From Thermococcus chitonophagus (lineage in GTDB: Archaea > Methanobacteriota_B > Thermococci > Thermococcales > Thermococcaceae): a DNA stretch of 64,000 nucleotides. Shown here piece after piece: positions 40,160-62,127 of the stretch (position 1 is the stretch's first letter; the number at the start of each line of letters is the position of its first letter). The position numbers and the translations under genes were made by a program. Location of the stretch: contig NZ_CP015193.1 in the NCBI RefSeq assembly GCF_002214605.1, positions 1,096,978-1,160,977 of the forward strand, in the 5' to 3' direction. The notes beneath the pieces were generated by a model, which was not told the DNA's origin, made no database searches, and saw nothing but the letters and a program-made list of their open reading frames with translations.

Positions 40160-40237
40160 GCGGTGGTAGTCTAGCCTGGTCTAGGACGCCGGCCTCCCAA
40201 GCCGGCGACCCGGGTTCAAATCCCGGCCACCGCACCA
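40160..40237 (+). tRNA. tRNA-Gly(CCC), target of the integrated element
   Basis: Acceptor strands GCGGTGG and CCACCGC pair, with an A discriminator and an encoded CCA. The anticodon loop CTCCCAA gives anticodon CCC, and the T loop is GGTTCAAATCC. The gene is whole because the element carries a copy of its 3' part. The last 46 bp form the left attachment repeat. Confidence 0.96.
40192..40237 (+). repeat. attL: 46-bp attachment repeat inside tRNA-Gly
   Basis: The segment from the anticodon loop (GCCTCCCAAG) to the encoded CCA is identical to 62062-62107. Outside it the sequences diverge (T against C on the right, G against T on the left). Confidence 0.95.
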
Positions 40238-40445
40238 TAATTATTTCTTGAAGCCTTGTAATGGCATCCCCTTGCGAAACAATAGCTGCAAGAATCATAT
40301 TCACCACCCGCGACAAGTTGTAGCCCCTTTTACGAACTTCCTCGACCAAACCCTCACATAGGTAAAGATGAACCCGTTTCTTCTGCCAATAATGGGTTGA
40401 ATCTCGGTTGAGAGCCCCGCTTTTTCCGTGGGCCTTTTGTCCCAA
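40192..40445 (-). CDS. Integrase, N-terminal part (int-N), split by integration
   Basis: A fragment of about 85 codons reading into the tRNA-Gly antisense strand. Residues 25-60 (RVHLYLCEGLVEEVRKRGYN onwards) look like a ribbon-helix-helix-type DNA-binding or dimerisation segment. The fragment ends in the att-encoded VRWPGFEPGSPAWEA. The same att peptide starts the C-terminal fragment at the other end, so joining attL to attR restores one frame of about 365 residues. In the integrated state, the frame runs on past the att site into the tRNA 5' flank and stops at 40083. The TTG start at 40445 is preceded by GGTGGG; the exact start is uncertain. Confidence 0.85.
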
Positions 40446-40512: not shown

Positions 40513-40830
40513 CTATGCCTTTAGCCATTCCGAATACTCTCTTCCGAGTTTGATCATCCTGCTTGAGAAGCGCTTTGAGAGTATTATGTAATCCTTACCG
40601 TTAATTATGACTTCTTCAAGAATGCCAAGTTCTTTAAGGCGCCTAATCACATAGTAAACTGTATTTGTGTGAACGCCTGAGGCTTTAGCTACTTCTTGGA
40701 CGAAGGATTTGAGGTTGCCTCTAAAGAGCTTGCCGTCATGTTCATACTTCAGTTTGTCGAGAATGTTCTCAACTACGAGCTTTTCACTCCTTAGCATACC
40801 ATACCTTATGACCTTGTCAAGCCAGTCCAT
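40513..40830 (-). CDS. Winged-helix transcription regulator
   Basis: A protein of about 105 residues with a winged-helix domain: a recognition-type segment ASGVHTNTVYYVIRRLKELG follows the first helices, and a beta wing IINGKDYIILS follows it. It probably represses its own gene and the element's left arm. Repeated GCACAAA/TTTGTGC inverted repeats lie across its ribosome binding site and promoter. The ATG at 40830 has GGTGGTGAG just before it; a GTG three codons upstream is also possible. Confidence 0.75.
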   Translation of the reverse strand: MDWLDKVIRYGMLRSEKLVVENILDKLKYEHDGKLFRGNLKSFVQEVAKASGVHTNTVYYVIRRLKELGILEEVIINGKDYIILSKRFSSRMIKLGREYSEWLKA

Positions 40831-40840
40831 ACTCACCACC

Positions 40841-41058: not shown

Positions 41059-41730
41059 TCATGCCCTAACACCCCCTAGCCACACCTCTAAATTGAGATC
41101 CTTCTTCCTGGGGAAGAGCTTTGAAAACTCCTCCTCAACCTTGATCCTAACCGCCCTCTCGATCATGTACTCCAGAGAACTTGCTGGAGAGTGATACTTG
41201 GCTGAGACAATCATCTTAGCAAAGCCTTCCTCCCAAACCACCCATCCAATCCCATAGTAACCCATGACAAAAAGATCTTCAAAGTCAAGCGTAACCCAGG
41301 ATCTAGTGGCGATGTACATGTAATCAACATAAGGCTGCCTTGCAATGGCTTGGGCAAGGACCTTCTTAACATCACCCTCCTTAAACTCAACCCCAATCCT
41401 CCTAACATGCCCCTTCCTATTTCTCAAAATAATTAGGAGATCAAACTCAAGCTTTTCATTATTTCCATTAAGCCACACATGAGGATGAACCTCCTTAAGC
41501 TCCAAATTAGTGCCAGCAGTATGATACCTAACTATAACATCAAGCACGCCAAGAGCATATGCCTCTGAGCCTACTGGAATCTCCTTCTTGCACTTCTCAC
41601 AAACATGAGACTTCCTAGTTCTTATCCTTCTAGACTTGTAAAAGCTACGATAATTTACAAACCCTAGGAGATATGCAATTGGTACCCTAAGAAAATCAAG
41701 AACATATAGAGAAACATTAACCTCACTCAT
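41059..41730 (-). CDS. Zinc-ribbon protein with PD-(D/E)XK nuclease-like core
   Basis: A 223-residue protein. Near residue 44 is a zinc-binding pair CEKCKKE, with further potential ligands not obvious. From about residue 95 follows a restriction-endonuclease-like pattern: EFDLLIILRN (aspartate) then GVEFKEGD (E-x-K) followed by a helix with VLAQAIAR. This suggests a metal-dependent DNA nuclease. A role at replication or packaging of the element is possible. The gene overlaps the one before it by 4 nt and is the last of a run of six coupled minus-strand genes starting at 43680. Confidence 0.55.
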   Translation of the reverse strand: MSEVNVSLYVLDFLRVPIAYLLGFVNYRSFYKSRRIRTRKSHVCEKCKKEIPVGSEAYALGVLDVIVRYHTAGTNLELKEVHPHVWLNGNNEKLEFDLLIILRNRKGHVRRIGVEFKEGDVKKVLAQAIARQPYVDYMYIATRSWVTLDFEDLFVMGYYGIGWVVWEEGFAKMIVSAKYHSPASSLEYMIERAVRIKVEEEFSKLFPRKKDLNLEVWLGGVRA

Positions 41731-42077
41731 GCCTCAACCTCCCTCAGGCTTTTTACTTCCATGAGATTTGTTTTGATCTCGGAAAGCTTTCTCCTAACCA
41801 ATCCGCTTTCTTGAATTTCAAAAATATCGAGAAGGTTTTTCTGAGATTTTGAGAGTGTGATTAGGACATTTAAGTCCCTGATAATCTTCTCAATGTCGTA
41901 AGTTGCTGGAATCTCAAATGCCACAACTTCCCCACCCCTGAGTAAAAGCTTGATATCAAAGTGCAGGCCTCCCTTGTATGTTGAGGCACTAACATCAACT
42001 GCTTGAACCTCACTGAGGTCAACAAGCCTCATCAAAACCTCTTCAGAAAAATTGAAGAACACAGCAAGCCAAGCCAT
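41727..42077 (-). CDS. Hypothetical protein of the element's replication block
   Basis: A 116-residue protein with a beta-rich N-terminal half (SASTYKGGLHFDIKLLLRGG) and a helical, charged C-terminal half. No family recognised. It begins directly at the end of the 77-residue gene upstream and overlaps the nuclease-like gene by 4 nt. A second ATG 15 codons in is a possible start. Confidence 0.6.
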   Translation of the reverse strand: MAWLAVFFNFSEEVLMRLVDLSEVQAVDVSASTYKGGLHFDIKLLLRGGEVVAFEIPATYDIEKIIRDLNVLITLSKSQKNLLDIFEIQESGLVRRKLSEIKTNLMEVKSLREVEA

Positions 42078-42311
42078 TCACACCACCCCGAATTTCTTTA
42101 GAAGCCCTTTTACGGTTAGTAAAGCCCCAACGTACCCCTCCCAATAATAGAACTCCTCCATGTCCCCCTTGCGGAGGAAGTACTCCTTCCTCTTCCTGGC
42201 TTCCTCAAGTTCCCTCTCAATTAACTCCACAATACTAACCCTAGACTGCTCCGCCTCCCTAGCCTTCCTTACTTCAGAGGCAACCCACTCCCAAAACTCA
42301 GCCTCACTCAT
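42078..42311 (-). CDS. Small helical hypothetical protein
   Basis: From the ATG at 42311 this gives 77 residues (MSEAEFWEWVASEVRKAREA onwards), mostly helical and acidic/basic, with an YYWEGYVGALLTVKGLL segment at the end. The frame opens 13 codons earlier, but this ATG overlaps the GINS-like gene's stop and fits the coupled layout of the operon. No family recognised. Confidence 0.6.
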   Translation of the reverse strand: MSEAEFWEWVASEVRKAREAEQSRVSIVELIERELEEARKRKEYFLRKGDMEEFYYWEGYVGALLTVKGLLKKFGVV

Positions 42312-42774
42312 CCACAACACCCCCATCGAGAAATCCGCGTAACTCCTCACTCCAACGCCTGTAAAACTCCCTCTCCTCTTTTGTTAGCTTATTCTCGATT
42401 TCGAGAGAGTTGGGGCGAATTAAAGCAGCATAGAAGATCTTCTCAAGCCTAGTCATCTTGAGCTTCCTCACGTGATCTTGGAAGCGCCTGAGAGTGTCCA
42501 AAGCATAAGCATCAGCCCTCCTAGCCCTTGTCAACAAAACTTCTTCCACAAGCTTCACTTTCTCATAGAAGTCTTCATCGAGCTTCTGCAATTCCGTATT
42601 CTTAGCCTCCAAATACCTTAATGCCGCAACCTCCTTCACAAAATCATGAAGACCAGCAAGATCCACAATACCCTTCTTGAACAGTTCTCTAAACGTACCT
42701 ATATCAACCGAAATATAGTCTCCTTTTCTCCAGCTCCCAATATCAGTTAATACAACCGCCAGAACCTCAGTCAT
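42304..42774 (-). CDS. GINS-like replication protein
   Basis: A 156-residue protein whose two halves resemble the GINS fold. The N-terminal part (VLTDIGSWRKGDYISVDIGT then ELFKKGIVD) is like the small GINS B domain. The rest is like the helical A domain: KLDEDFYEKVKLVEEV, then TRLEKIFYAALIRP, then LTKEEREFYRRWSEEL. The B-A order is that of Gins23/Psf2/Psf3. Chromosomal GINS links MCM helicase and RecJ/Cdc45 in the archaeal replisome. An element-borne copy could recruit or redirect the host helicase. The match is by eye from motif pattern only. It is coupled to neighbours by 4- and 8-nt overlaps. Confidence 0.5.
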   Translation of the reverse strand: MTEVLAVVLTDIGSWRKGDYISVDIGTFRELFKKGIVDLAGLHDFVKEVAALRYLEAKNTELQKLDEDFYEKVKLVEEVLLTRARRADAYALDTLRRFQDHVRKLKMTRLEKIFYAALIRPNSLEIENKLTKEEREFYRRWSEELRGFLDGGVVDE

Positions 42775-43439
42775 GCAATCACCCCCTCAACTATTCCTGA
42801 TGAGCGAAATTTCCCATCATCCCGTTTTGCAATCCTAACAATCCAACCGAGCTCCCTAAACCTCAAATCCTTCTCAACAACCAACCCAAGCTCCTCAGAA
42901 ACCAGAATCTTGCCCTCATCAACAAACCAGCGCTCCAGGAATTCTTTCGCGTGCCTCAAGTAATCACCAGAATATCCAAGCCTCTTGAGAAGATCTAACA
43001 TCTTTATACTGCCATCTCTACCATACTTGTCGAGGATTTCGTAGATTTCGAGCTTGAGATCCTCAGCCTGGCGCTCTCTTGCACTCATCTTTAGCTGTCT
43101 CTTGAGTTCGGCCAGCTCAGCCTTCAGAGCCTTCACTTCCTCACGAAGAGCATCACGCTCTTTCAAAACCCTCTCATAATCATCCTGAAGCTTCAGAAAC
43201 TTAGCCTCAAGCTCAGCATAGTCCTTCTCGAGCTTTGAAGTAAGCCTTTTATACTCCTCAAGCTCACGCATAACTTCTGCAACATTTGCATCCGATGCAT
43301 CGAGCAACATTTCTATAAATTCACGTCTCGAAAGGGAACCTCTACGTTCATCTAGTTTCCTAACGTATGAGATCTGAAGTTGTAAATGAATATTTTCAAC
43401 AGGTTCTTTCAATCTCTTTGGAGCTCCTCTTCTTGCCAT
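42771..43439 (-). CDS. DNA-binding coiled-coil protein with RHH and winged-helix parts
   Basis: A protein of about 222 residues in three parts. The first 50 residues look like a ribbon-helix-helix domain (IHLQLQISYVRKLDERRGSL, SRREFIEMLL). Residues 60-125 form a long heptad coiled coil. The C-terminal 85 residues resemble a winged helix (MLDLLKRLGYSGDYLRHAKE). This layout suits a plasmid partition or replication-initiation protein. The ATG at 43439 follows CGGTGAT and comes just after the stop of the small RHH gene. Confidence 0.65.
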   Translation of the reverse strand: MARRGAPKRLKEPVENIHLQLQISYVRKLDERRGSLSRREFIEMLLDASDANVAEVMRELEEYKRLTSKLEKDYAELEAKFLKLQDDYERVLKERDALREEVKALKAELAELKRQLKMSARERQAEDLKLEIYEILDKYGRDGSIKMLDLLKRLGYSGDYLRHAKEFLERWFVDEGKILVSEELGLVVEKDLRFRELGWIVRIAKRDDGKFRSSGIVEGVIA

Positions 43440-43443
43440 AATA

Positions 43444-43680
43444 TCACCGCTTAGCCCTGTATCTTTCAAGTTCAGCTTTAAGAGCGCTTAGTTCCTCTTT
43501 TAGAATAGCAAGTTCCTCTTGTAGTTTCCGATTTTCCTCGATTAGTTTCCATTTCTCAGAATCAAGTGTTTTAATTAGATCTTCTAGCAGTTCTGCCCTT
43601 GTTCTGCCATTTTTCATTGATTCAAGCTTATGCCAAAGTTCTATTGGTACATCAGCAATCCATCTTTTCTTCAGGGGCAT
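43444..43680 (-). CDS. Ribbon-helix-helix coiled-coil protein
   Basis: A 78-residue protein with an N-terminal RHH-like segment (RWIADVPIELWHKLESMKNG, RTRAELLEDLI) and a C-terminal coiled coil (WKLIEENRKLQEELAILKEE). It is the first gene of the six-gene operon running to 41059. Its promoter region contains the 30-bp palindrome at 43713-43742, so it is the natural candidate for binding it. Confidence 0.7.
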   Translation of the reverse strand: MPLKKRWIADVPIELWHKLESMKNGRTRAELLEDLIKTLDSEKWKLIEENRKLQEELAILKEELSALKAELERYRAKR

Positions 43681-43712
43681 GTCTTATCCCTCCATACGTT
43701 ATTAGCTCTATA

Positions 43713-43742
43713 TACGTCAGTAACGTATACGTGATTGACGTA
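43713..43742. promoter_or_regulatory. 30-bp palindrome in the replication-block promoter
   Basis: TACGTCA (43713-43719), three bases, the perfect palindrome ACGTATACGT (43723-43732), three bases, then TGACGTA (43736-43742). The two arms are exact complements. Next to it, CTTAAATA (minus strand, 43742-43749) is a likely TATA box for the gene at 43680, so the palindrome covers the transcript start. It may be an operator for the RHH protein or part of an origin. Confidence 0.65.
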
Positions 43743-43749
43743 TTTAAGA

Positions 43750-44031: not shown

Positions 44032-44520
44032 TTAGGCTCTGCTTAGTATTCTTATCTCCTGATCTCTAGTTATTATTTCATATTTGCCTCTGAGGATATT
44101 GCGAAGAAATTTGGCCTTATCTCCCAATAGCTCTTCTGGCTTAATTATATCTACAATTAATACTTCAACGAAGTCTCCTGGCTTTATCCCGATTTCGTCT
44201 CTTAGGCCTTTTGGAATTGTCATATAGCCTTTGTCATATACTCGGGCTAGAAAATGTCCTCTATGTACTTTTTCGTTGTCTTTTTTCCTTATTATCACCT
44301 CTATGAAATCCCCAAGTTCTATGTTATAATACTCCCTAATGGGAGTTAGTAAGGTTATTCTCCCCTGAACCATTACCTTTGTTGGATACTTAGCTAGTGG
44401 CTCTGGTGTTTCTTGCATTCTTTGTGCCTCCTTGAGCTTTCTTATTATGCTTATATGTTTAGACGTTTTTGAACCTATAATGTTTTTTATCCTATTTACC
44501 ATGTTTGCACTCTTATGCAT
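44032..44520 (-). CDS. Tandem AbrB/SpoVT-type DNA-binding protein
   Basis: A 162-residue protein with two swapped-hairpin AbrB-like units. The first is VMVQGRITLLTPIREYYNIE followed by LGDFIEVII. The second is ARVYDKGYMTIPKGLRDEIG followed by IKPGDFVEVLI. Two units in one chain could form the usual double-hairpin fold without dimerising, or bind two sites. A TAAATTTTGA-like box about 25-30 bp before the ATG, and the absence of a ribosome binding site, suggest a leaderless transcript. Confidence 0.75.
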   Translation of the reverse strand: MHKSANMVNRIKNIIGSKTSKHISIIRKLKEAQRMQETPEPLAKYPTKVMVQGRITLLTPIREYYNIELGDFIEVIIRKKDNEKVHRGHFLARVYDKGYMTIPKGLRDEIGIKPGDFVEVLIVDIIKPEELLGDKAKFLRNILRGKYEIITRDQEIRILSRA

Positions 44521-44641
44521 TTTTATTACTTACAACAATAGTCAAAATTTAGGATTGTCATGGGCTTGATAATTTGGAGAGTAAGAGTTTTTATTATGCA
44601 TTTCCAGAGATTTTAAAGCTAAAAGAGAGGGGGTGAAGGGG

Positions 44642-45190
44642 GTGAGCTTGGGAAAGGCGATAATGGTAGTGGGGATTATTTTGATTGTAATAGGAATGTT
44701 TGGTCTTGGTTTTTACTATGCGGCTTCTCCAAGGTTAATACAGGAGTATAACTTAAATAAAAATCTTTATGTTGGGGCTGGATATCCTATTAAGTTTATT
44801 GCAGAGCGGGGGAATATCATTGTTGTTAAAGGTGAGGGTAGAGGCCCAAATGGCGAATTAGTGCCGGTTAATATCATGATTGATGGTGTTTCAAATATAA
44901 AAATTAGCAGGAATCCTGGGACTTCTGACTTCTTCTATAGCGTTGATAGGACTCCCTTGATGTCTCCATTTGGGTATAGTTTTAGAGCTCCTTTCACGGG
45001 AGAGTTTGAAATCACTCTTGAATATTTGCCTAAAGACCTTGACAAATGGCCAGGTGAGGCAACTGTTGTGGCAACGATTTCGGTTTATGATGACTCATTT
45101 AAACGGAGAAACCTTCTGATATTTGGGGCTATTACTGTGATAGGTCTTTTCTTAACTGTGATAGGTAAACTCCTACAGCGAACTTCATGA
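44642..45190 (+). CDS. Membrane protein with an extracellular domain
   Basis: About 182 residues: a hydrophobic helix near the N terminus (IMVVGIILIVIGMFGLGF), a beta-rich external domain of about 120 residues, and a second helix near the C terminus (LLIFGAITVIGLFLTVIG). The GTG at 44642 follows GGGGGTGA and is preferred over the GTG at 44633. It overlaps the frame of the next gene, so the pair is coupled. No family recognised. Confidence 0.65.
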   Translation: MSLGKAIMVVGIILIVIGMFGLGFYYAASPRLIQEYNLNKNLYVGAGYPIKFIAERGNIIVVKGEGRGPNGELVPVNIMIDGVSNIKISRNPGTSDFFYSVDRTPLMSPFGYSFRAPFTGEFEITLEYLPKDLDKWPGEATVVATISVYDDSFKRRNLLIFGAITVIGLFLTVIGKLLQRTS

Positions 45191-45207
45191 TGGAAGGAGG
45201 TGATACT

Positions 45208-46107
45208 ATGGGAAGTATTGCTGCTAAGGAATATATGGTTAAAGCTAAGCCTTATGATCACTTTGAAATTGTTGTAAGTATTCGTCCCCAGGGTGGTGGT
45301 CTAAATATTAGTGTCGGGTTCTATAATCATCCTCTGAAACCTGGCCCTACTCCAAACATTGAAATATGGTATCCCATAGTAGGATACGTTGGGTATAGGG
45401 ATAGAAGCAACTTATTTACTATAGGTCATCTTTATCATTTTTCAAGAGATATTAGTCTGCATTCTGTTGGGCGGGTTTTCCAAGGACTTTTACGCCCCGG
45501 TGATCCTCCTATAGAGATTGAATTCTTTGTAAAGGTTCCACTAGAGCATGCAGAAAAAATGAAAGAAATTGCTGATAAAAGAGGTGTGTTATCTTTAATT
45601 GTTGCTTTACAGTTCTCAGCTTTATACGATCAGGGAAAGATAGGTCAAAGAACAATGAATTATGAGATCAATCTTCCATTTGAGATACCTAGGGAAAGTA
45701 TTGAAGAGTGGGTAGCTTATTGGACAGGTATCTATGCATACTATGTTGAATTGCCAAAAACGACACCAGAGGAAGTTTTTCATGACTATGTTGAGGCTAT
45801 AAAGGCATATAATGTGGGAGCATATAGGGCTAGTGTTGCAATGGCGAGAAGGGCACTTCAGCAGGCCTTGATTGATAAGGGTGCTTCTAAAAAGAAGACA
45901 TTGCATCAGCAAATAGAAGAGCTCTTTGAAAGGGGCCTTCTGGATAAGGCTACAAAGAGCTTGGCTGATAGTGTCAGGTATTTTGGGAATTATGGAGCCC
46001 ATCCTCAGGATGACATGCTTGCGCAAGTGACTAAAGAGGATGCAAAATTGGTTCTCGATGTTCTTAGAAAGATTCTGTGTATCCTTTACCAGGCCAAGGA
46101 TAAATGA
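45208..46107 (+). CDS. DUF4145/HEPN-like protein
   Basis: A 299-residue protein. The N-terminal 180 residues are beta-rich and unfamiliar. The C-terminal 110 resemble DUF4145, a HEPN-related helical domain: AIKAYNVGAYRASVAMARRA, LHQQIEELFERGLLD, and YFGNYGAHPQDD near the end. DUF4145 occurs in restriction and other defence proteins. The ATG at 45208 has a strong GGAGGTGAT. It is coupled with the membrane protein before it; both lie in AT-rich, Ile/Phe-codon-biased DNA unlike the chromosome. A defence or surface-sensing role is a guess. Confidence 0.65.
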   Translation: MGSIAAKEYMVKAKPYDHFEIVVSIRPQGGGLNISVGFYNHPLKPGPTPNIEIWYPIVGYVGYRDRSNLFTIGHLYHFSRDISLHSVGRVFQGLLRPGDPPIEIEFFVKVPLEHAEKMKEIADKRGVLSLIVALQFSALYDQGKIGQRTMNYEINLPFEIPRESIEEWVAYWTGIYAYYVELPKTTPEEVFHDYVEAIKAYNVGAYRASVAMARRALQQALIDKGASKKKTLHQQIEELFERGLLDKATKSLADSVRYFGNYGAHPQDDMLAQVTKEDAKLVLDVLRKILCILYQAKDK

Positions 46108-46116
46108 TATCTAGAA

Positions 46117-47289
46117 TTAAAGACGTTTCTGCCCCAAGAATATCTTTTTAAGGGCTTCCTTTTCTTTGATGTAATCAATTGAGTCTGTTTGGTTAATATA
46201 CTTTTGGGATCTCTTAAATTCGTCTCTACTTTCTCTAAACTCGTGAACTTTTGAAATTGCTTTTATTATGCTTAGCTTTTCTGGATTTCTCTGAGCTTCG
46301 GGGTAATTTTGAAGGGCATCAATTACGGTTTTTTCGTAGTTTAAGGAAGATGCAATAGTATCAATCCAATCGTCATAATTCCATTTGAAGTCCCTTAGGT
46401 TTTCTATTGTTAGTTTACTCCTATCAAAGAATTTTATTACAGTATCGACGGGTCTTTTAGGTAATTTTTGAGCTCCTCCACCAAAGGGTACCCACTCTGC
46501 TGTAATATCACCCATAATAAACTCAGCATAGTGAGGAGACGCCACCTTTGGAACAATATCTGATGCTCCTTCTCTCTGAACATCTATTAACAACACGGCA
46601 ATGTCTTTATCATATAGACGCTCCCACAGGACATCATAACTTGCTTTATGGGTTGCTATTTTCTTATAGATGACTCCAATAAATTGGATCTGGTCGAGAT
46701 ATGGATTTAAGGCCTCGAGATACCTTTCTAAACTTTCAGCTTCAGAAATGTCGAGGATAGGAATTACTTCAATGTCATCTGGAAGGTTGTTCCGATAAAT
46801 CCTGTAAATGTTTGCAAGTTCTTTAGGCGTTAGCTCTATCCATGGGATAGTTACCACATTAAGGCCAAGATCTCTTATCTGGAGATCAACAACCATCCGA
46901 AGGAATTTTTCTTTTAGATGTTTTGTTTTAAGAAGGGAAATGGCTGGCTGAGTTGGCTGGACTAGAACAACGTTCAGGGGAAAATATTGCATTCTTAATA
47001 AATGATAATATATGGAATCCCGAATTCTGTTATATACTGAATTTTTCTTAAGGAATGCCTTTATATTCCTCCTTTGGCCGGAACTAAGCTTAATATTTAC
47101 AAATCCTATGTCTGCTTCAATTGGGATCTCTGCTGGTATTGTAGCTTTTGCATTCATTTCAGTATTTGTAATGGCTCTGATGGGAGCTCTTATTGTTTTA
47201 GAAGTACTTATTCGAATCTTTAGTGTTCTCGCCCGATAGAGGTACTTGTCAGATTCATCAATGTTCTCAAGTTTAACTTCTAAAGCCAT
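46117..47289 (-). CDS. Protein of unknown function with barrel-like alpha/beta repeats
   Basis: A protein of about 390 residues in AT-rich DNA. The first 90 residues are beta-rich. From about 95 to 290, alternating strands and helices (NVVLVQPTQPAISLL, NVVTIPWIELTPKE, IEVIPILDISEAES, IQFIGVIYKK, IAVLLIDVQREG) look like a TIM barrel, distantly reminiscent of tRNA-guanine transglycosylase-type folds. No cysteine cluster or clear active site is visible. The ATG overlaps the stop of the winged-helix gene upstream (TAATG), so it is the last gene of a three-gene cassette. The fold is inferred only from pattern. Confidence 0.55.
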   Translation of the reverse strand: MALEVKLENIDESDKYLYRARTLKIRISTSKTIRAPIRAITNTEMNAKATIPAEIPIEADIGFVNIKLSSGQRRNIKAFLKKNSVYNRIRDSIYYHLLRMQYFPLNVVLVQPTQPAISLLKTKHLKEKFLRMVVDLQIRDLGLNVVTIPWIELTPKELANIYRIYRNNLPDDIEVIPILDISEAESLERYLEALNPYLDQIQFIGVIYKKIATHKASYDVLWERLYDKDIAVLLIDVQREGASDIVPKVASPHYAEFIMGDITAEWVPFGGGAQKLPKRPVDTVIKFFDRSKLTIENLRDFKWNYDDWIDTIASSLNYEKTVIDALQNYPEAQRNPEKLSIIKAISKVHEFRESRDEFKRSQKYINQTDSIDYIKEKEALKKIFLGQKRL

Positions 47290-47861
47290 TATCCACGTCC
47301 TCCCCATAACACTTCCTTATATTTGTCCTTTATTTCAGACTGTTTAGTGTAATCAGGGTAATTCCTATATACATATCTTAGTATTCCATCAATTCCTAGC
47401 TGATCCCATCCAATTCTCATCTTTTTAATGTCCTCCTGGAGTTCTTTGGGAAGTGAACTAAATATCTTATGGGCTTCTTCTTCTCCTTTTGGAGTTAATT
47501 TGAACGTTTCTTTTCTAGTATTCCTTCTCCCATAAATATCTATAAGGCCATTCCAGTAAAGTTGTTTTATAATTTCTGCAAGTTCAAAACTATAGGGACC
47601 GTATTTGTATCCAAAGAACTTGGGATCTTGAAGGATGAAGACGTTAGTATACTTGCTAAGTATTTCTTTATACAGGAGGAATATCTCTTTAAAAAGCATT
47701 ATACGGCTGTGAATTGGCTTATCCTTTTGAGCATAAAGGAGGATAAGCACCATATCTCGTAAGGTTATGATTTGCTTGTTCTCTCTTTTAATTTTGTCTA
47801 CTATCTTAGAAATACGGGCTATTTTTTCGTTGAAGTTTGTGTTTCCATTTATAGCTTCCAT
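47289..47861 (-). CDS. YwgA-like winged-helix protein
   Basis: A 190-residue protein with a helix-rich N terminus and the motif FFGYKYGPYSFELAEIIKQL followed by a short wing. YGPYS followed by a second helix and G-L-I is typical of the YwgA/Panacea-like winged-helix proteins, which act as regulators or antitoxin-type chaperones. The rest (FKLTPKGEEEAHKIFSSLP) also fits a winged helix. It lies 18 bp after the zinc-ribbon gene with GAGGGG before the ATG, and one base overlaps the downstream gene. Confidence 0.55.
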   Translation of the reverse strand: MEAINGNTNFNEKIARISKIVDKIKRENKQIITLRDMVLILLYAQKDKPIHSRIMLFKEIFLLYKEILSKYTNVFILQDPKFFGYKYGPYSFELAEIIKQLYWNGLIDIYGRRNTRKETFKLTPKGEEEAHKIFSSLPKELQEDIKKMRIGWDQLGIDGILRYVYRNYPDYTKQSEIKDKYKEVLWGGRG

Positions 47862-47879
47862 GACTGTTACCCCTCTATG

Positions 47880-48386
47880 TTATCTTATTATTTCTATATG
47901 CTTCCCAATGATCTCGCCTGTTTTATTATTGCGGTAAGCACTCAGATAAAAGTTTTGTCCATTGGATTTGAAAAGTATGTGTAACTCATAAGCTACCTTT
48001 TTTGTCTTTGAAGAAAGCCATCTACGAGTGTTATTAGCTATACCCTCCGGAATAACAATCGCATAAGCGTTGTAGAATATATCCCTGGGATCTATCCCCC
48101 AACTTATAATTTCTTGTGCAATTGCTTCCTCATTTTCAAATTGGAGTTTATCTAGTACGAAATTAAGAAACTCAGGGTTATTATCATGATCAGCAATTAT
48201 TATGTATCTTTTGCCACAATACTCACACACAATCTTAAAGGGGCTAGTAACGATTTCATACTCAGTGATTTGGCCACTACTTACAATCTGGGCTAATGTC
48301 TGGAGAGAGAAAATTATCTTTGACGCCTTCATTACTGTTATATTCTGATTGCCGCAGTAAAGGCATTTCCTAGGAACATTATTCAC
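47880..48386 (-). CDS. Zinc-ribbon protein, first gene of the three-gene cassette
   Basis: A 168-residue protein with two paired cysteine motifs, CLYCGNQN near residue 8 and CEYCGKRY near residue 54, which could hold one zinc ion. The rest is mixed alpha/beta with a beta-rich C terminus (YELHILFKSNGQNFYLSAYR). The start is a GTG with GGGGGGCAG before it. An AT-rich box near 48455 (minus strand) may be its promoter. It appears to be the promoter-proximal gene of the cassette 46117-48386. Confidence 0.6.
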   Translation of the reverse strand: MNNVPRKCLYCGNQNITVMKASKIIFSLQTLAQIVSSGQITEYEIVTSPFKIVCEYCGKRYIIIADHDNNPEFLNFVLDKLQFENEEAIAQEIISWGIDPRDIFYNAYAIVIPEGIANNTRRWLSSKTKKVAYELHILFKSNGQNFYLSAYRNNKTGEIIGKHIEIIR

Positions 48387-51613: not shown

Positions 51614-53026
51614 TCACAAGGTTTGTGAGGGCCTAAAAAGGATTCTTTCAGTAAACAGTTTGTTTATGATAATGTATCCTCTCCCTTTGTGCTCTCTTCT
51701 CAGCTTTTCAACTTCTCCTGGGGTTCTAGCAAGAGGTTGGTGGTATTTAAGCTCGAAGTCTGGGATTAGTTTCCTTAATAATCTGGTGTCATCTGCGCTT
51801 GTAAGAAACCCTAGAATTGCTATATGTGATGCTCCATAGATTAGCTCACTCGGTAGGCTGTGTAAATATTGGGTTGCAGCGAAGAGGTTTATTTGGTTGC
51901 TTCTTCCTTCCCTAAACAGACTGCTTATGATTTTTCTTCCTGTATGGTCATCTAGGTATTTTTGTATTTCATCGCCAACTATGAAGATTGCTGTTTCTTT
52001 TATTTGGGCGTACTCGTTCATCAGGTACTCGATTATTTTCCTGAAAATGAGCTTCTTTTCTTCAAGGGTTAAGCGTGAATTCTGTGAGAAGTCAATGACG
52101 TTTATCTTATCATTGTCTATAATATCAATGAGGTCTTTTCCGTCTTTTTCAAAAAGTGGATTGCTTTTTAGCCTTTCCATTGTGGCTTTTACTCCCCACA
52201 AGCTCATGTTAGGCTTTGCTGATTCTATTTCAAGGAATTCGAGCATTTCTTGGTAGATTTCCTTTGCTCTATGCAGGACCTCATCTGGATCCCTGATCTT
52301 TAGGTGGTCCCATGCTTCCTTTATTACTCCTGAGTATATGGTATAGTTGTTGAGGTTGAGCAACTTTGCGAGGTCCTCAAAGTTTAGCCTTGAGTACTTG
52401 ATTTTCGTTGCTATTATCTCGGCCTCTGGTCCTGAATCATAGGCTATGTGATGCAATTCTCTTGTTGGGTTGAAGACTATTCTCCGCATTGGGAATGGCT
52501 CTGGTCTTAGGCCAAAGTTTGAGAGTTCTGTGTTTCTTGAGTCTATTTTTTGTAGCCCTAAGATGTTGCCCCAGGCTAGTGCAAAGTCTCCCATGAGTCC
52601 TATTGAGCCTGCCATTCCTGGGTTCATGAGGAGGGTTATGTAAAATTTCATCTCCTTGTAGTGTTCTTCTCCAAATCTGTCCTTCAACCACTTTTCTCCT
52701 TTTTCTTTTAGGAGTGTTATGAATGTGTTTTTGACTGCTTGTGCTTTTGCCCTGTCATATTTTGCTTCAAAGACTACGATTAGTGGCTTCTCTCTGTCTC
52801 TACCCCAGGAAGTTTTTGTCCATATCTCCTGTATTAGGGCTTTCATTGCGGTGGTTTTCCTAAATCCTGATGGTCCCAGGAATACCATATGGTTGGCATC
52901 TTCCTCGGTAAGTTCTAGGTACCTGTAGGTGCTTCCAGTTTCATCAACTTGATTTGCCTTTCCAACAAGGATTATATTTCTTTGTCTCGGAAATGTTGTT
53001 GCTGCGTTTATTACTGCTTCTACCAC
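51614..53026 (-). CDS. HerA/FtsK-like ATPase (packaging or DNA-transfer motor)
   Basis: A 470-residue P-loop ATPase. Walker A is GPSGFRKTTAM (residues 51-61), Walker B is AIFIVGDEIQKYL near residue 345, and the sensor region is NLFAATQYLHSLP. The HerA/FtsK-type fold and the short glycine loop suggest a DNA translocase, either a packaging motor for virions or a transfer/secretion motor. It differs from the host HerA, which is longer and has a HAS-barrel. It is the first gene of an operon with two hypothetical proteins; a TATA-like AATAAAAATAAA lies upstream. Confidence 0.85.
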   Translation of the reverse strand: MVEAVINAATTFPRQRNIILVGKANQVDETGSTYRYLELTEEDANHMVFLGPSGFRKTTAMKALIQEIWTKTSWGRDREKPLIVVFEAKYDRAKAQAVKNTFITLLKEKGEKWLKDRFGEEHYKEMKFYITLLMNPGMAGSIGLMGDFALAWGNILGLQKIDSRNTELSNFGLRPEPFPMRRIVFNPTRELHHIAYDSGPEAEIIATKIKYSRLNFEDLAKLLNLNNYTIYSGVIKEAWDHLKIRDPDEVLHRAKEIYQEMLEFLEIESAKPNMSLWGVKATMERLKSNPLFEKDGKDLIDIIDNDKINVIDFSQNSRLTLEEKKLIFRKIIEYLMNEYAQIKETAIFIVGDEIQKYLDDHTGRKIISSLFREGRSNQINLFAATQYLHSLPSELIYGASHIAILGFLTSADDTRLLRKLIPDFELKYHQPLARTPGEVEKLRREHKGRGYIIINKLFTERILFRPSQTL

Positions 53027-55807: not shown

Positions 55808-56320
55808 TCACCCCAGGAAGTTTAGTCCTAATCCTGGTGGGAGAATTGTTAGGTACTGGAACTTCGTTGCAATAGTTGCTCCGAGCCATAGCCACAACAA
55901 TAACTCGTCATCCCCTGTTTCTGGTGCAAAGATGTACAGTGCTATTAAACCGGCAACGAAGATGTTTGCAGGGCTTATTGTTCCTATGTTCATTGTTATC
56001 GTCCCTGTTAGGGCCCACACCACTACAAAGAACCCTAATCCTGCAAACAATAAGCTGACAATCACTGCAGAGATTCTGCTCTTTCCAGCTGGTGAGTTCG
56101 TTGCGTAGGCGTAAAGCTTATTGTAGAAGTCATTCTTGTCTGCAAATCTATCAAATAACTCAATGAGGGCAACGAAGGCTAATGGAATGCTTGCTAAGGC
56201 AACGTTAGTCTCTGCTATCGTTACGCTGTGGTCTGCTGCATAGGCAAGTAAAAATCCCAAAAGACCAGAGGCAAGGGCAGTTTTCAATAGCCATTGGCCT
56301 ATCTTCAATTTCCTATCCAT
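55808..56320 (-). CDS. Four-helix membrane protein
   Basis: 170 residues with about four or five membrane segments and a conserved-looking acidic loop (FAPETGDDELLLWLWLG). It shares one base with the end of the large surface protein gene upstream. No family recognised. Confidence 0.65.
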   Translation of the reverse strand: MDRKLKIGQWLLKTALASGLLGFLLAYAADHSVTIAETNVALASIPLAFVALIELFDRFADKNDFYNKLYAYATNSPAGKSRISAVIVSLLFAGLGFFVVVWALTGTITMNIGTISPANIFVAGLIALYIFAPETGDDELLLWLWLGATIATKFQYLTILPPGLGLNFLG

Positions 56321-58464
56321 TACCTAATCACCTCCAGAAGGAAGTCAAGAACTCCGGCATACTTGCCCAGGAACCAACCCAGGATTATGAGCAGTCCGAG
56401 TAATCCCCAGGAATTGCCAAGTACCCTACTCAGAACTAGGGCTAAGAGAAGCCCAACTGCAAGAACTATTATGTCATCTGTATCAAGCGGTATATTCAGG
56501 CCTGCTAAGGTTAAGGCTATGCTGGGCTCATACTGCTTTGCTAGCTTGCTTGTCTCTTCTGCTTTCTTCGCGTCGAGCTCGGCCTGTTCGTGCTCATTGT
56601 GTAATGCCTTATATGCTGCATTCTTATAATAATCACCTGATATCTCATGCTTTTTGGCCGCATTCAGATAATTCAGGAGAGTTTGGACACTCTTAGTTGA
56701 CTTTACCTTTTCAAGGTCTTTTATTGCTGCCTTGTACTCCTTGATTGCTTTTTCTGCATAATCAATGGCTTTTTGGTTGTTCTGAGCTTGTGCCTTCTCT
56801 TTTAGCTCCTCTACCTCAGTTATCTTATCCTGCAGTCCAGTGATCCACTCATTAGCCTGAGCTACTATGTGCTCTCTATCTGCCTCAGAGATCTCATTGT
56901 CTTCAACCAACTTTGTAAGCTGCTCTACCTGTGTATCGTCGAGTTTTAATCTCTCATTTTGGAGCACTGAAATTAGAGGTTCTACAGCAAGCCATGTCTT
57001 GATGGTTGTGTTGTCATCACGTTTTATCTTGAACAGGGCAAATCCGTAGACCTTATACGTTACTGCAGCGGGATCATCCGTATACCTTGCCGAGAGTTGC
57101 TTTTCTATTGAAGAGGTTAAGGCTCCTAGGTTCCCCCTTATGCTATCTGCAACTTCATAATCTCCACTCTTCGTGACTTTAACAACTACAAGCCTGAAAT
57201 CATCCGTTATCTCTGGATTTAGAGGATCAAAGTATCCTGGGTTTCTTGCAAAGGTAAACATGAAGTCTGCAGTGCTCCCAATCACATGGACTGGAGTTGC
57301 TGCGGTAATAACGAAGACGTTGCTAACTGCACCACCAAACTTCTCCTTGTATATTGACCATTTACTTGCATACTCAGTTGAGAGGAACTTAGTTGGAATA
57401 CTGGCGTACATCCCCTTATCTATGAGGACAATATCGGATGCTCTGGTTACATGGCGCCAAGCTGAAATTGTATGAACGCTGTAGTCAATATCAACGATCT
57501 TTACAAACTCATAGCATGTGTTTGTAGAAGGATCCCATTTCTTATTTCCAGTACAAGTTTCTTGAGTATCATTGGTACTTTGCCAGACTTCCCTATAGGC
57601 GTCTATGTTCACATAAATCTCAAAACTCTTTGTTGTAGCGTTAAACAGCTTTTCAACATCCTCTCTGCTTAAAACTCCAGTCTCTATTATTCTCTCAACA
57701 ATGCTAACGTAATCGTCTGGAACTTTCATTATAGTTGTGTAGACAGCCTGACCTCCGTTCAGGCCTTCACTTCCTTGCCCATAGTCCCAAGTTCTTGCCC
57801 AGTATACTCTCCCATCCTCGTCCTTGAGATAAACAGTGACTTTTCTCAGGTGTATATAGTTAAATGGGATAGGGCTTTTCCTAAACTCTAGTTTTATTTG
57901 AATTGGGAATGCACTAAAGCCGTAAATCTTCTCGGGTCCCCAAACTGTTGCAATGATATCACCAGTTGCTCCACTCTCTGCAGTATCGTATTTCACCAAA
58001 TCGCTTCTCAGCTTAGCTGAAACTTCCGCTATGGCTTTATACGCTTCCTTGTTTGCGTTCTCAGTTATGTGTTTCAAATCACTAAGATCTGAATCCGTGC
58101 TTACGGTAGTAGTATTTGCGTACCTCTCCGAGTTCATGGGAATGCTCTTCTTGTCCTCATCTCCTCCAAGGACGTAGTTCTTGATTGCTCCATATATACC
58201 GCCAATTACAGCTCCTGCAATTGCTCCAACCTTAGCACCACCTGCAGCACATACCGCTGACAGGGTTCCCCCTGAAAATATACCACAGACTACTGCACCT
58301 GCAATTGCCCCAACAACAGCACCTGCACCTGCAGTCTTTACAGTGTCCCAGAACTTTGATACCTTCTCCTTCAATCCTGAGAAGCTAAATGCAGCTACTT
58401 GGGCGTCATTTACAGTCGCTAAGATTAATGTAAAAGCAAGGAAGAAGGCAAAAGCTGTTCTCAT
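56320..58464 (-). CDS. Large exported membrane protein
   Basis: 714 residues. A signal peptide (FAFFLAFTLILATVNDAQVA) is followed by a Gly/Ala-rich hydrophobic hairpin (residues 45-90, AGAGAVVGAIAGAVVCG). A long beta-rich external domain comes next, then a coiled coil (about 520-640) and two C-terminal membrane helices (IIVLAVGLLLALVLSRVLG, LLGLLIILGWFLGKYAG). The Gly-rich hairpin recalls fusion- or glycine-zipper-like segments. A cell-envelope or virion surface role is likely. Coupled by 4-nt overlap to the lectin-like gene. Confidence 0.75.
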   Translation of the reverse strand: MRTAFAFFLAFTLILATVNDAQVAAFSFSGLKEKVSKFWDTVKTAGAGAVVGAIAGAVVCGIFSGGTLSAVCAAGGAKVGAIAGAVIGGIYGAIKNYVLGGDEDKKSIPMNSERYANTTTVSTDSDLSDLKHITENANKEAYKAIAEVSAKLRSDLVKYDTAESGATGDIIATVWGPEKIYGFSAFPIQIKLEFRKSPIPFNYIHLRKVTVYLKDEDGRVYWARTWDYGQGSEGLNGGQAVYTTIMKVPDDYVSIVERIIETGVLSREDVEKLFNATTKSFEIYVNIDAYREVWQSTNDTQETCTGNKKWDPSTNTCYEFVKIVDIDYSVHTISAWRHVTRASDIVLIDKGMYASIPTKFLSTEYASKWSIYKEKFGGAVSNVFVITAATPVHVIGSTADFMFTFARNPGYFDPLNPEITDDFRLVVVKVTKSGDYEVADSIRGNLGALTSSIEKQLSARYTDDPAAVTYKVYGFALFKIKRDDNTTIKTWLAVEPLISVLQNERLKLDDTQVEQLTKLVEDNEISEADREHIVAQANEWITGLQDKITEVEELKEKAQAQNNQKAIDYAEKAIKEYKAAIKDLEKVKSTKSVQTLLNYLNAAKKHEISGDYYKNAAYKALHNEHEQAELDAKKAEETSKLAKQYEPSIALTLAGLNIPLDTDDIIVLAVGLLLALVLSRVLGNSWGLLGLLIILGWFLGKYAGVLDFLLEVIR

Positions 58465-61107: not shown

Positions 61108-61221
61108 CTACCACCTCCCTCTAATTTTCCAGTACTCAACTCCAGAGGCAAACAGGACTATGAGAGTAAACAGCATGACGAAAACAATGAAGACAAAAAG
61201 CATCCTAACAATAAAGATCAT
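61108..61221 (-). CDS. Tiny single-helix membrane protein
   Basis: An ATG at 61221 overlaps the integrase stop (ATGA) and opens a 37-codon frame. It begins MIFIVRMLFVFIVFVMLFTL, one strong transmembrane helix, and ends in a basic tail. The tight overlap upstream and the closely placed RHH start downstream support it. No family recognised. Confidence 0.5.
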   Translation of the reverse strand: MIFIVRMLFVFIVFVMLFTLIVLFASGVEYWKIRGRW

Positions 61222-62062
61222 TCCAAACCCTCCAGAACCTTCTTCAAATCATCAACAACTTTTGAATAGGCCTCATCCGCCTCCAATTCTAAGTCGAGAT
61301 AGTGTTTCTCTAAAACTGTTCTTGGAACCCTGCTCTGTATGTAGTCTATTATGTGATCCTTCACACCATGCATTGAGAGAAATGTTGCATGCCATTTCCT
61401 TATCGTTGAGGCGTTCACTCTTCCATAGCGAAGCCTCTTCCCTATCGTGTCCTCTTTTATCTCAACTGACCTAAGTTCCTTGATAATGTCTGCAGGCATG
61501 TAAATGAAGAGGGTTGCCTTAGTCCCCCTCCTTTCTATTATTGCATATTTAGCTATGTTTGGATATTTTGGAGGAAATATGACCTTGCTAGGATCAAAGT
61601 TAGTGAGCATCTTATGGACTGCCCTAAGCCTTGCCCCACTGAACACTAGAATCTTAAAGAAAAGCTGAGTCACCTCGTCAGAATGCTTCTTGTGATACTC
61701 CCAAGCTTCGAGCAGTTCCTCAGTTGAAATCCTTATTTTGCTTTCCTTTGTTGCCTTGATTGGTATTGCATCTTTGAGCTCTTCAGCAAGTACTGGACTG
61801 ATAATCTTCTTGCTTCTCAGGAACTGCACAAATTTCCTGAGTGCCTTACACAGATGGCGCTTATAGTTCTCCTTGGCGAGGGCCTTCTCAAGTTCACCAA
61901 CTGAGTGTGGGCTGTATTTATCAAAGAACTTCCTCAATGCCCTAGCGTATTCGGAAGCTGTTTCTTCCGATAATGCTCCTGCTTTCACTTGAGCGGAGAG
62001 CCATTCCAAAAATAACCCTTCATATCTGACCCATAAAGTATTTAAACCCCTAAAATCTACTG
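61218..62062 (-). CDS. Integrase, catalytic C-terminal part (int-C)
   Basis: The larger part of a tyrosine recombinase of the SSV type. About 280 residues follow the att-encoded peptide (frame open from 62108). Catalytic features are ILVFSGARLRAVHKML with the first arginine, IRKWHATFLSMHGV with a histidine, and the nucleophile tyrosine in TVLEKHYLDLE. The N-terminal half is at 40192-40445. After integration neither half alone is complete, so excision would need another source of enzyme or activity of the fragments. Related integrases of Thermococcales elements (pTN3) are known to act on chromosomal sequences too. Confidence 0.9.
62039..62046 (+). promoter_or_regulatory. Element-borne TATA box for the methyltransferase gene
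   Basis: TATTTAAA is followed after about 25 bp by the att repeat and after 82 bp by the methyltransferase ATG. It lies inside the integrase frame (opposite strand). It would replace the tRNA-Gly promoter that originally lay upstream. Confidence 0.4.
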
Positions 62063-62107
62063 CCTCCCAAGCCGGCGACCCGGGTTCAAATCCCGGCCAC
62101 CGCACCA
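62062..62107 (+). repeat. attR: 46-bp attachment repeat
   Basis: Exact copy of the 3' part of tRNA-Gly(CCC), identical to 40192-40237. Without the 5' half it is not a functional tRNA. Confidence 0.95.
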
Positions 62108-62127
62108 CACTTTTTTGAGGGAGGAAA

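Follow-up and report, generated by a model that had tools for sequence, protein, structure and literature searches.

A divergent Gins23-type GINS subunit is encoded on an integrated plasmid of the pT26-2 family in the window analysed here (the whole stretch of 64,000 nucleotides, positions 1096978-1160977 of a 1.96-Mb archaeal chromosome). The gene lies at 42304-42774 on the minus strand, and the most likely role of its product, which is inferred, is that of the plasmid's replisome-recruitment factor. The combined explanation, in which a divergent plasmid Gins23 recruits the host replisome, is the one we favour, with moderate confidence in the whole.

The integrated element spans 40192-62107 (21.9 kb) and is bounded by att repeats, the left one in a tRNA-Gly(CCC) gene that ARAGORN places at 40160-40237. 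Apart from the replication region, which is listed further on, its annotated features are the following.

40192-40237, plus strand: attL, the left element end, formed by the 3' part of tRNA-Gly(CCC) and an exact 46-bp repeat of 62062-62107
40238-40445, minus strand: N-terminal part of a split type I (SSV-type) integrase, an ORF running into the tRNA att site, with a layout like the start of pT26-2 t26-1
40513-40839, minus strand: small winged-helix/HTH protein, weakly matched by HTH families of Pfam (TrmB, for instance, with E=2.8e-4)
41059-41730, minus strand: protein of 223 aa that, judged by eye, may be a PD-(D/E)XK-like nuclease carrying a zinc-binding motif
44032-44520, minus strand: AbrB-like protein, t26-20 homologue (TIGR01439, E=9e-11)
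51614-53026, minus strand: HerA-like ATPase, t26-14p homologue and family core gene (PF01935, E=2.4e-10)
56320-58464, minus strand: t26-6p homologue and family core gene (three Pfam domains of the T26-6p type, best E=2.4e-45)
61218-62108, minus strand: C-terminal part of the split integrase, reading from attR (PF16795, archaeal phage integrase, E=7e-45)
62062-62107, plus strand: attR, the right element end, the 46-bp exact repeat

The 46-bp att repeats and the split type I integrase bear out the location on a mobile element that had been proposed in the preliminary description. The HerA-like ATPase is 36.6% identical to pT26-2 t26-14p (E=1e-76, and 1e-89 in a second comparison), and homologues of t26-1, -4, -5, -6, -15 and -20 are present as well, with E values against the pT26-2 proteins of 2e-140 for t26-5, 7e-149 for t26-6 and 4e-14 for t26-15. 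On the basis of the ATPase, the T26-6p domains and these other homologues, the element is therefore assigned to the pT26-2 plasmid family (Badel et al. 2019, PMC6972569). The family criterion of a type I integrase in a tRNA gene is also met (tRNA-Gly, 46-bp att repeats). The product of 41059-41730 has no significant Pfam match, and its sole homologue among the pT26-2-family loci is in the G040 element.

The same description had stated that the element has no recognisable polymerase, primase, helicase or Cdc6. No polymerase, primase, MCM or Cdc6/Orc1 could be recognised in the element, and that part stands; the statement on helicases needs the qualification that a HerA-like ATPase is present, which belongs to the family's core gene set and is not a replicative helicase. 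The Rep proteins known from the family (MCM, MCM-like and t26-22p) were not found in the element either. This is still compatible with membership of the pT26-2 family, because a Rep was found in only 15 of its 29 members (PMC6972569). Between the AbrB gene and the core block, 44633-48386 holds cargo that may be defence cargo of the plasmid: a DUF4145 protein (45187-46107) also matches the PD-T7-4 defence model (E=1e-8), and in a three-gene set at 46117-48386 the gene at 47289-47861 matches the candidate defence model PDC-M19A (E=1.4e-10).

The product of 42304-42774 had been described as a GINS-like protein with a B-like domain followed by an A-like domain, the order of Gins23, Psf2 and Psf3, and both points were substantiated. 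In a phmmer search of the PDB, residues 7-143 match the T. kodakarensis Gins23 (3ANW_B, E=5.7e-13), and the second-ranked match is unrelated (E=0.13). The NCBIfam Gins23 model (NF053565) matches residues 16-143 with E=1.1e-14 and 54.7 bits, which falls below, and so does not meet, the curated cut-off of 120 bits; this cut-off is non-discriminating here, because it is passed in none of the 94 Thermococcaceae genomes. Alignment by hhalign to a profile of six host Gins23 sequences gives a probability of 98.6% (E=8.5e-16, residues 8-144), and a profile built from the four element copies described below finds 3ANW_B with E=3.5e-31 and the S. solfataricus GINS with E=2.9e-4. The BA order is confirmed, because the alignment spans the B domain and then the A domain. 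The host's chromosomal Gins23 (1778542-1779054, ORF limits) is 31% identical to the element copy, and its gene overlaps mcm by 4 nt (region G000:C1:1774000-1781000).

The two checks that the preliminary description had proposed, profile comparison with GINS and superposition on the Thermococcus complex, were thus both positive. An AlphaFold model made with an alignment of 22 host Gins23 sequences has a pLDDT of 92.5 and superposes on 3ANW_B with a TM score of 0.83, on the S. solfataricus GINS chains with 0.67-0.68 and on the human GINS chain 2E9X_B with 0.68. The best structural matches in the PDB are 3ANW_B, 9MOJ and 2E9X_B, the last of which we take to be human Psf2 from the usual chain order. 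The fold match is supportive without being independent proof, because the alignment consisted of Gins23 sequences. It could be argued that the protein is not GINS at all and shows only chance helical similarity, given that the Pfam Sld5 match is sub-threshold (E=0.0012) and that a model from the single sequence is of low confidence (pLDDT 44). However, four sequence or profile methods concur over 130-150 residues, an RPNSLE motif is common to the element protein and host Gins23, and the fold of the alignment-based model agrees with GINS, which leaves this objection with almost no credibility.

The occurrence of such genes was surveyed in 94 Thermococcaceae genomes, each searched whole. A clearly divergent second Gins23 was detected in four of them, the genome of the window (G000), G006, G005 and G092, and the last three copies are 87%, 56% and 36% identical to that of the window. 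Judged by the family ATPase, there are 28 pT26-2-family loci, spread over 26 genomes, and each of the four additional Gins23 genes is located inside such an element. A GINS profile search revealed no hidden GINS in the other 24 loci; several of these are cut by contig ends, and whole-genome searches there found no second divergent Gins23. MAG G057 contains two host-like Gins23 copies, one of them at the end of a short contig, and the second is probably a matter of assembly. Third matches to the NCBIfam Gins23 model in 12 Thermococcaceae genomes were discarded as weak matches to other proteins.

No relatives of the element GINS were found in PLSDB plasmids, INPHARED phages or IMG/VR contigs, nor with the GINS alignment in genome_contigs, where entries close to the window's genome may be missing. 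The BFVD viral structures gave no full-length match, only B-domain-like matches of about 40 residues, and a scan with Pfam Sld5 for other GINS genes on mobile elements lacked the sensitivity in Pyrococcus to be informative. A PHROG family of unknown function (phrog_35510, 179 positions) matches the GINS protein with E=3e-6; it has not been traced to a virus and could represent an archaeal viral protein whose likeness to GINS has gone unrecognised.

We take G005 to be, probably, P. horikoshii OT3 with its element PHV1, G006 probably P. kukulkanii and G000 P. chitonophagus, identifications that are inferred, also from the tRNA target. Table 3 of Badel et al. 2019 (PMC6972569) gives PHV1, PchCG74_IP1 and PkuNCB100_IP1 as lacking a replication protein, with one predicted origin each. 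By inference, three of the four GINS elements are probably those which that study (PMC6972569) listed without a replication protein. The comparison of slots described next is supported by G023, where two elements with one t26-22p fit TKV3 and TKV2 of the same table, if the genome is that of T. kodakarensis.

The GINS gene belongs to an operon in the replication region of the element, which comprises the following features.

41727-42077, minus strand: 116-aa protein of the replication-slot operon (ORF list), without a convincing match in Pfam and NCBIfam searches
42078-42311, minus strand: conserved small product of the replication slot; the ORF as listed is 42078-42350, with a probable ATG start codon at 42311
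42304-42774, minus strand: element-borne GINS, Gins23-like and of BA type, 156 aa (sequence, profile and predicted-structure matches)
42771-43469, minus strand: putative initiator or DNA-binding protein whose N-terminus is RHH-like, followed by a long coiled coil and a wHTH-like region at the C-terminus (domains by eye, coiled-coil matches)
43444-43680, minus strand: short RHH-like protein with a coiled coil, the operon's first gene (ORF, coiled-coil matches)
43709-43746, no strand: 38-nt inverted repeat upstream of the operon, with 19-nt arms, 84% complementary, and no spacer

The GINS start codon overlaps the stop codon of the putative initiator gene by 4 nt (ATGA). Homologues of this initiator occur in other element loci, including G006, G092, G020 and G007; a match of the protein to an MCM4 winged helix was weak (E=0.046) and was not used. 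Homologues of the small protein at 42078-42311 are found in most of the 28 pT26-2-family loci (18, counting the window), and RHH-type short proteins stand at the equivalent place of the first gene in related elements. The AbrB-like t26-20 homologue flanks the family's replication region and is kept in nearly all loci. The inverted repeat is a candidate operator or origin element. A GC-skew feature near 43.8 kb was rejected as evidence of an origin, since it coincides with a switch in gene direction.

The window, G005 and G006 share the order RHH/coiled-coil protein, GINS, small protein; the module recurs in G092, where GINS is shifted by one gene and comes directly after the small protein. In G007, the same two neighbours enclose a full MCM of 672 aa, whose gene overlaps that of the RHH/coiled-coil protein and is directly followed by the homologue of the small protein. 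MCM is also found in this region in G093, where a 921-aa protein is encoded at 33582-36347 in contig coordinates (L210, G093:C19:28000-36693), beside several AbrB-like genes. In pT26-2 itself, G015 and G023a, the t26-22p Rep lies between AbrB and the downstream genes. The slot comparison therefore indicates a variable replication region that holds GINS, MCM, t26-22p or small proteins of unknown type. Neither MCM nor t26-22p occurs in the four GINS-bearing elements. In most of the 28 loci, the stretch examined shows none of the three (GINS, MCM, t26-22p); elements without a known Rep are therefore common, and GINS does not always make up for it. A close relative of the initiator (E=4e-69) is encoded in G020 (L081, G020:C1, genome positions 174413-175541), in an element whose GINS slot is occupied by a 155-aa protein of unknown family, possibly a further type of replication factor.

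A comparison of the elements of G000 and G006 reveals a block of about 1.17 kb with 83% DNA identity, consisting of the initiator end, GINS and the small protein; almost nothing outside it aligns. Because the identity is confined to this block, GINS appears to move with its neighbours as a cassette of about 1.2 kb. The two GINS copies, which are the closest pair, have a dN/dS of 0.112/0.783, or about 0.14, and the element GINS is under purifying selection. When distant outgroups are omitted, the tree places the element copies outside the clade of 29 host copies, with support of 82/91. This best tree speaks against a recent duplication from the present Pyrococcus hosts, which was set aside as an explanation, but an AU test does not reject a grouping of the three Pyrococcus-genus element copies with their hosts (p=0.144; long branches), and origin and date are undecided. 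With class-level outgroups, the element copies and the Thermococcaceae hosts join at 99/98, and monophyly of the four element copies is weak (23/0). A search of other families of the phylum with the element profile gave nothing at E<0.001. Given this absence and the 99/98 join, the source is most likely a Thermococcaceae Gins23. The overlapping host gins23-mcm pair is a plausible source for either element gene; a single capture could have provided an element with both, one of which was later lost.

The four element copies differ from their host counterparts at a contact of the GINS tetramer. Oyama et al. 2011 (PMC3114041) described one Trp common to archaeal Gins23, human Psf2 and human Psf3 at the contact with the upper-layer subunits. 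The corresponding T. kodakarensis position, W30 in the Gins51-Gins23 contact, is occupied by G, E, D and V across the four element copies, and Trp is kept in all 29 host copies and in the three class-level outgroup copies that are complete in that region. W160 and E28-D29-K31, which are conserved in hosts, are changed as well. The element copies thus lack the Gins51-contact Trp that marks a canonical lower-layer Gins23, and with these changes the protein may not enter the host tetramer in the normal way; the loss in all four copies means that an altered partner or an interfering role remains possible. The best-kept stretch is the RPNSLE loop, with a mean identity of 0.62-0.68, against 0.15-0.50 elsewhere. 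Part of this loop is disordered in the TkoGINS crystal (residues 132-133 are missing), which would suit a partner-binding loop, although this is an inference. The element GINS may use a different partner on one face and keep another contact.

If the protein is the plasmid's recruitment factor, the co-translated RHH/coiled-coil protein would bind the plasmid origin, an assignment that rests on gene order only. Together with it, GINS, in the probable form of a Gins23-like dimer and perhaps joined by host Gins51, would be brought to the origin, where it would capture or activate host MCM, with GAN/RecJ and PolD behind. The plasmid could in this way begin to replicate with no helicase, primase or polymerase of its own, and its MCM-bearing relatives would supply the helicase itself, so that the two variants would represent two entries to the same CMG replisome. 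Origin binding, the protein contacts and the order of events are all inferred. The earlier proposal that the element supplies GINS for the host replisome has gained strong positional support from the MCM in the same slot of a sister element and from the absence of another replication protein in the four elements, but it is not proven, and the loss of the interface Trp in all four copies calls for caution over a simple substitution into the host tetramer. A more specialised version, which we regard as tentative and rather doubtful, is that the plasmid builds an element-specific CMG-like complex, in which a Gins23 variant without the standard Gins51 contact is tethered to its own origin-binding protein and redirects host MCM independently of Orc1/Cdc6.

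The chief rival to replisome recruitment is interference, with the element GINS as a decoy or inhibitor that pairs with host Gins23 or takes its place, or sequesters MCM/GAN. The outcome would be slower host replication or a limited plasmid copy number, rather than a working subunit. It is favoured by the loss of the interface Trp and other host-invariant residues in all four copies, and by a strong divergence (31% identity to the host protein) with sequence kept mainly in the RPNSLE loop. Co-translation with a putative initiator and interchangeability with MCM in the slot point instead to a replication role, as does the confinement of GINS to elements without another known Rep gene, and interference is considered unlikely, if still to be reckoned with. 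A role in another DNA transaction (recombination, repair or DNA transfer by the HerA-like ATPase) rather than in origin firing is less likely again; the core does encode a HerA-like ATPase and membrane proteins proposed as a DNA or protein transfer system (PMC6972569), but GINS lies in the variable replication slot, outside the conserved core block, and is missing from 24 of the 28 loci. That a host gins23 was captured by chance and has no role in the element, as a hitch-hiker or decaying copy, is very improbable. The host gins23-mcm pair could be captured, and pT26-2 elements are rich in unique cargo genes (PMC6972569); such a by-product is nevertheless hard to reconcile with four intact copies at a conserved position in four elements, the low dN/dS and the placement of the element copies outside the host clade in the best tree.

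Relative to the Gins23 of Thermococcaceae (3ANW chain B; arCOG00552; NF053565), the element protein is alike in BA order, fold, length and the RPNSLE...EER segment, but is only about 26-31% identical and lacks W30 and other host-invariant residues. Its gene adjoins that of a putative DNA-binding protein on a plasmid, whereas host gins23 adjoins mcm. With other members of its family (pT26-2, TKV2, TKV3, PHV1, TGV1; PMC6972569), the element has in common its size of 21.9 kb, a split type I integrase in a tRNA gene, the t26-14p ATPase, t26-6p, t26-15p, AbrB and other core genes, but its slot carries GINS rather than MCM or t26-22p, a type that is undescribed for the family. It resembles the MCM-bearing mobile elements of Thermococcales and Methanococcales (Krupovic 2010, as far as cited in PMC6972569; PMC12934983) in having a captured host CMG component in a variable replication module; those elements supply the helicase, and the one described here supplies the helicase's activator subunit, in the same slot as in G007. 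Capture of MCM is known in archaeal mobile elements, including several Thermococcales virus families (PMC12934983). The view that no mobile-element GINS had been described holds for the open-access literature, in which none was found (a report in a subscription journal is not excluded). The word GINS is absent from Badel et al. 2019 (PMC6972569), and Makarova et al. 2012, in a reply to a referee, stated that no viral genome had yet been found to encode GINS (PMC3307487). The protein family and the capture strategy are therefore known, and GINS as the captured part is new relative to the sources searched.

The finding offers an answer to why several Pyrococcus elements of the pT26-2 family seem to lack a replication protein. 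Because GINS and MCM replace each other in one slot, the family also provides a natural experiment on the recruitment and activation of archaeal MCM; in the archaeal CMG, the contacts between MCM and GINS have not yet been solved (PMC12035558). Because it lacks the Trp, the element copy offers a naturally occurring variant with which to dissect the GINS tetramer and the archaeal CMG; if an element-specific CMG-like complex is indeed formed, this copy would represent a replisome specificity subunit on a mobile element, evolutionarily interchangeable with a captured MCM.
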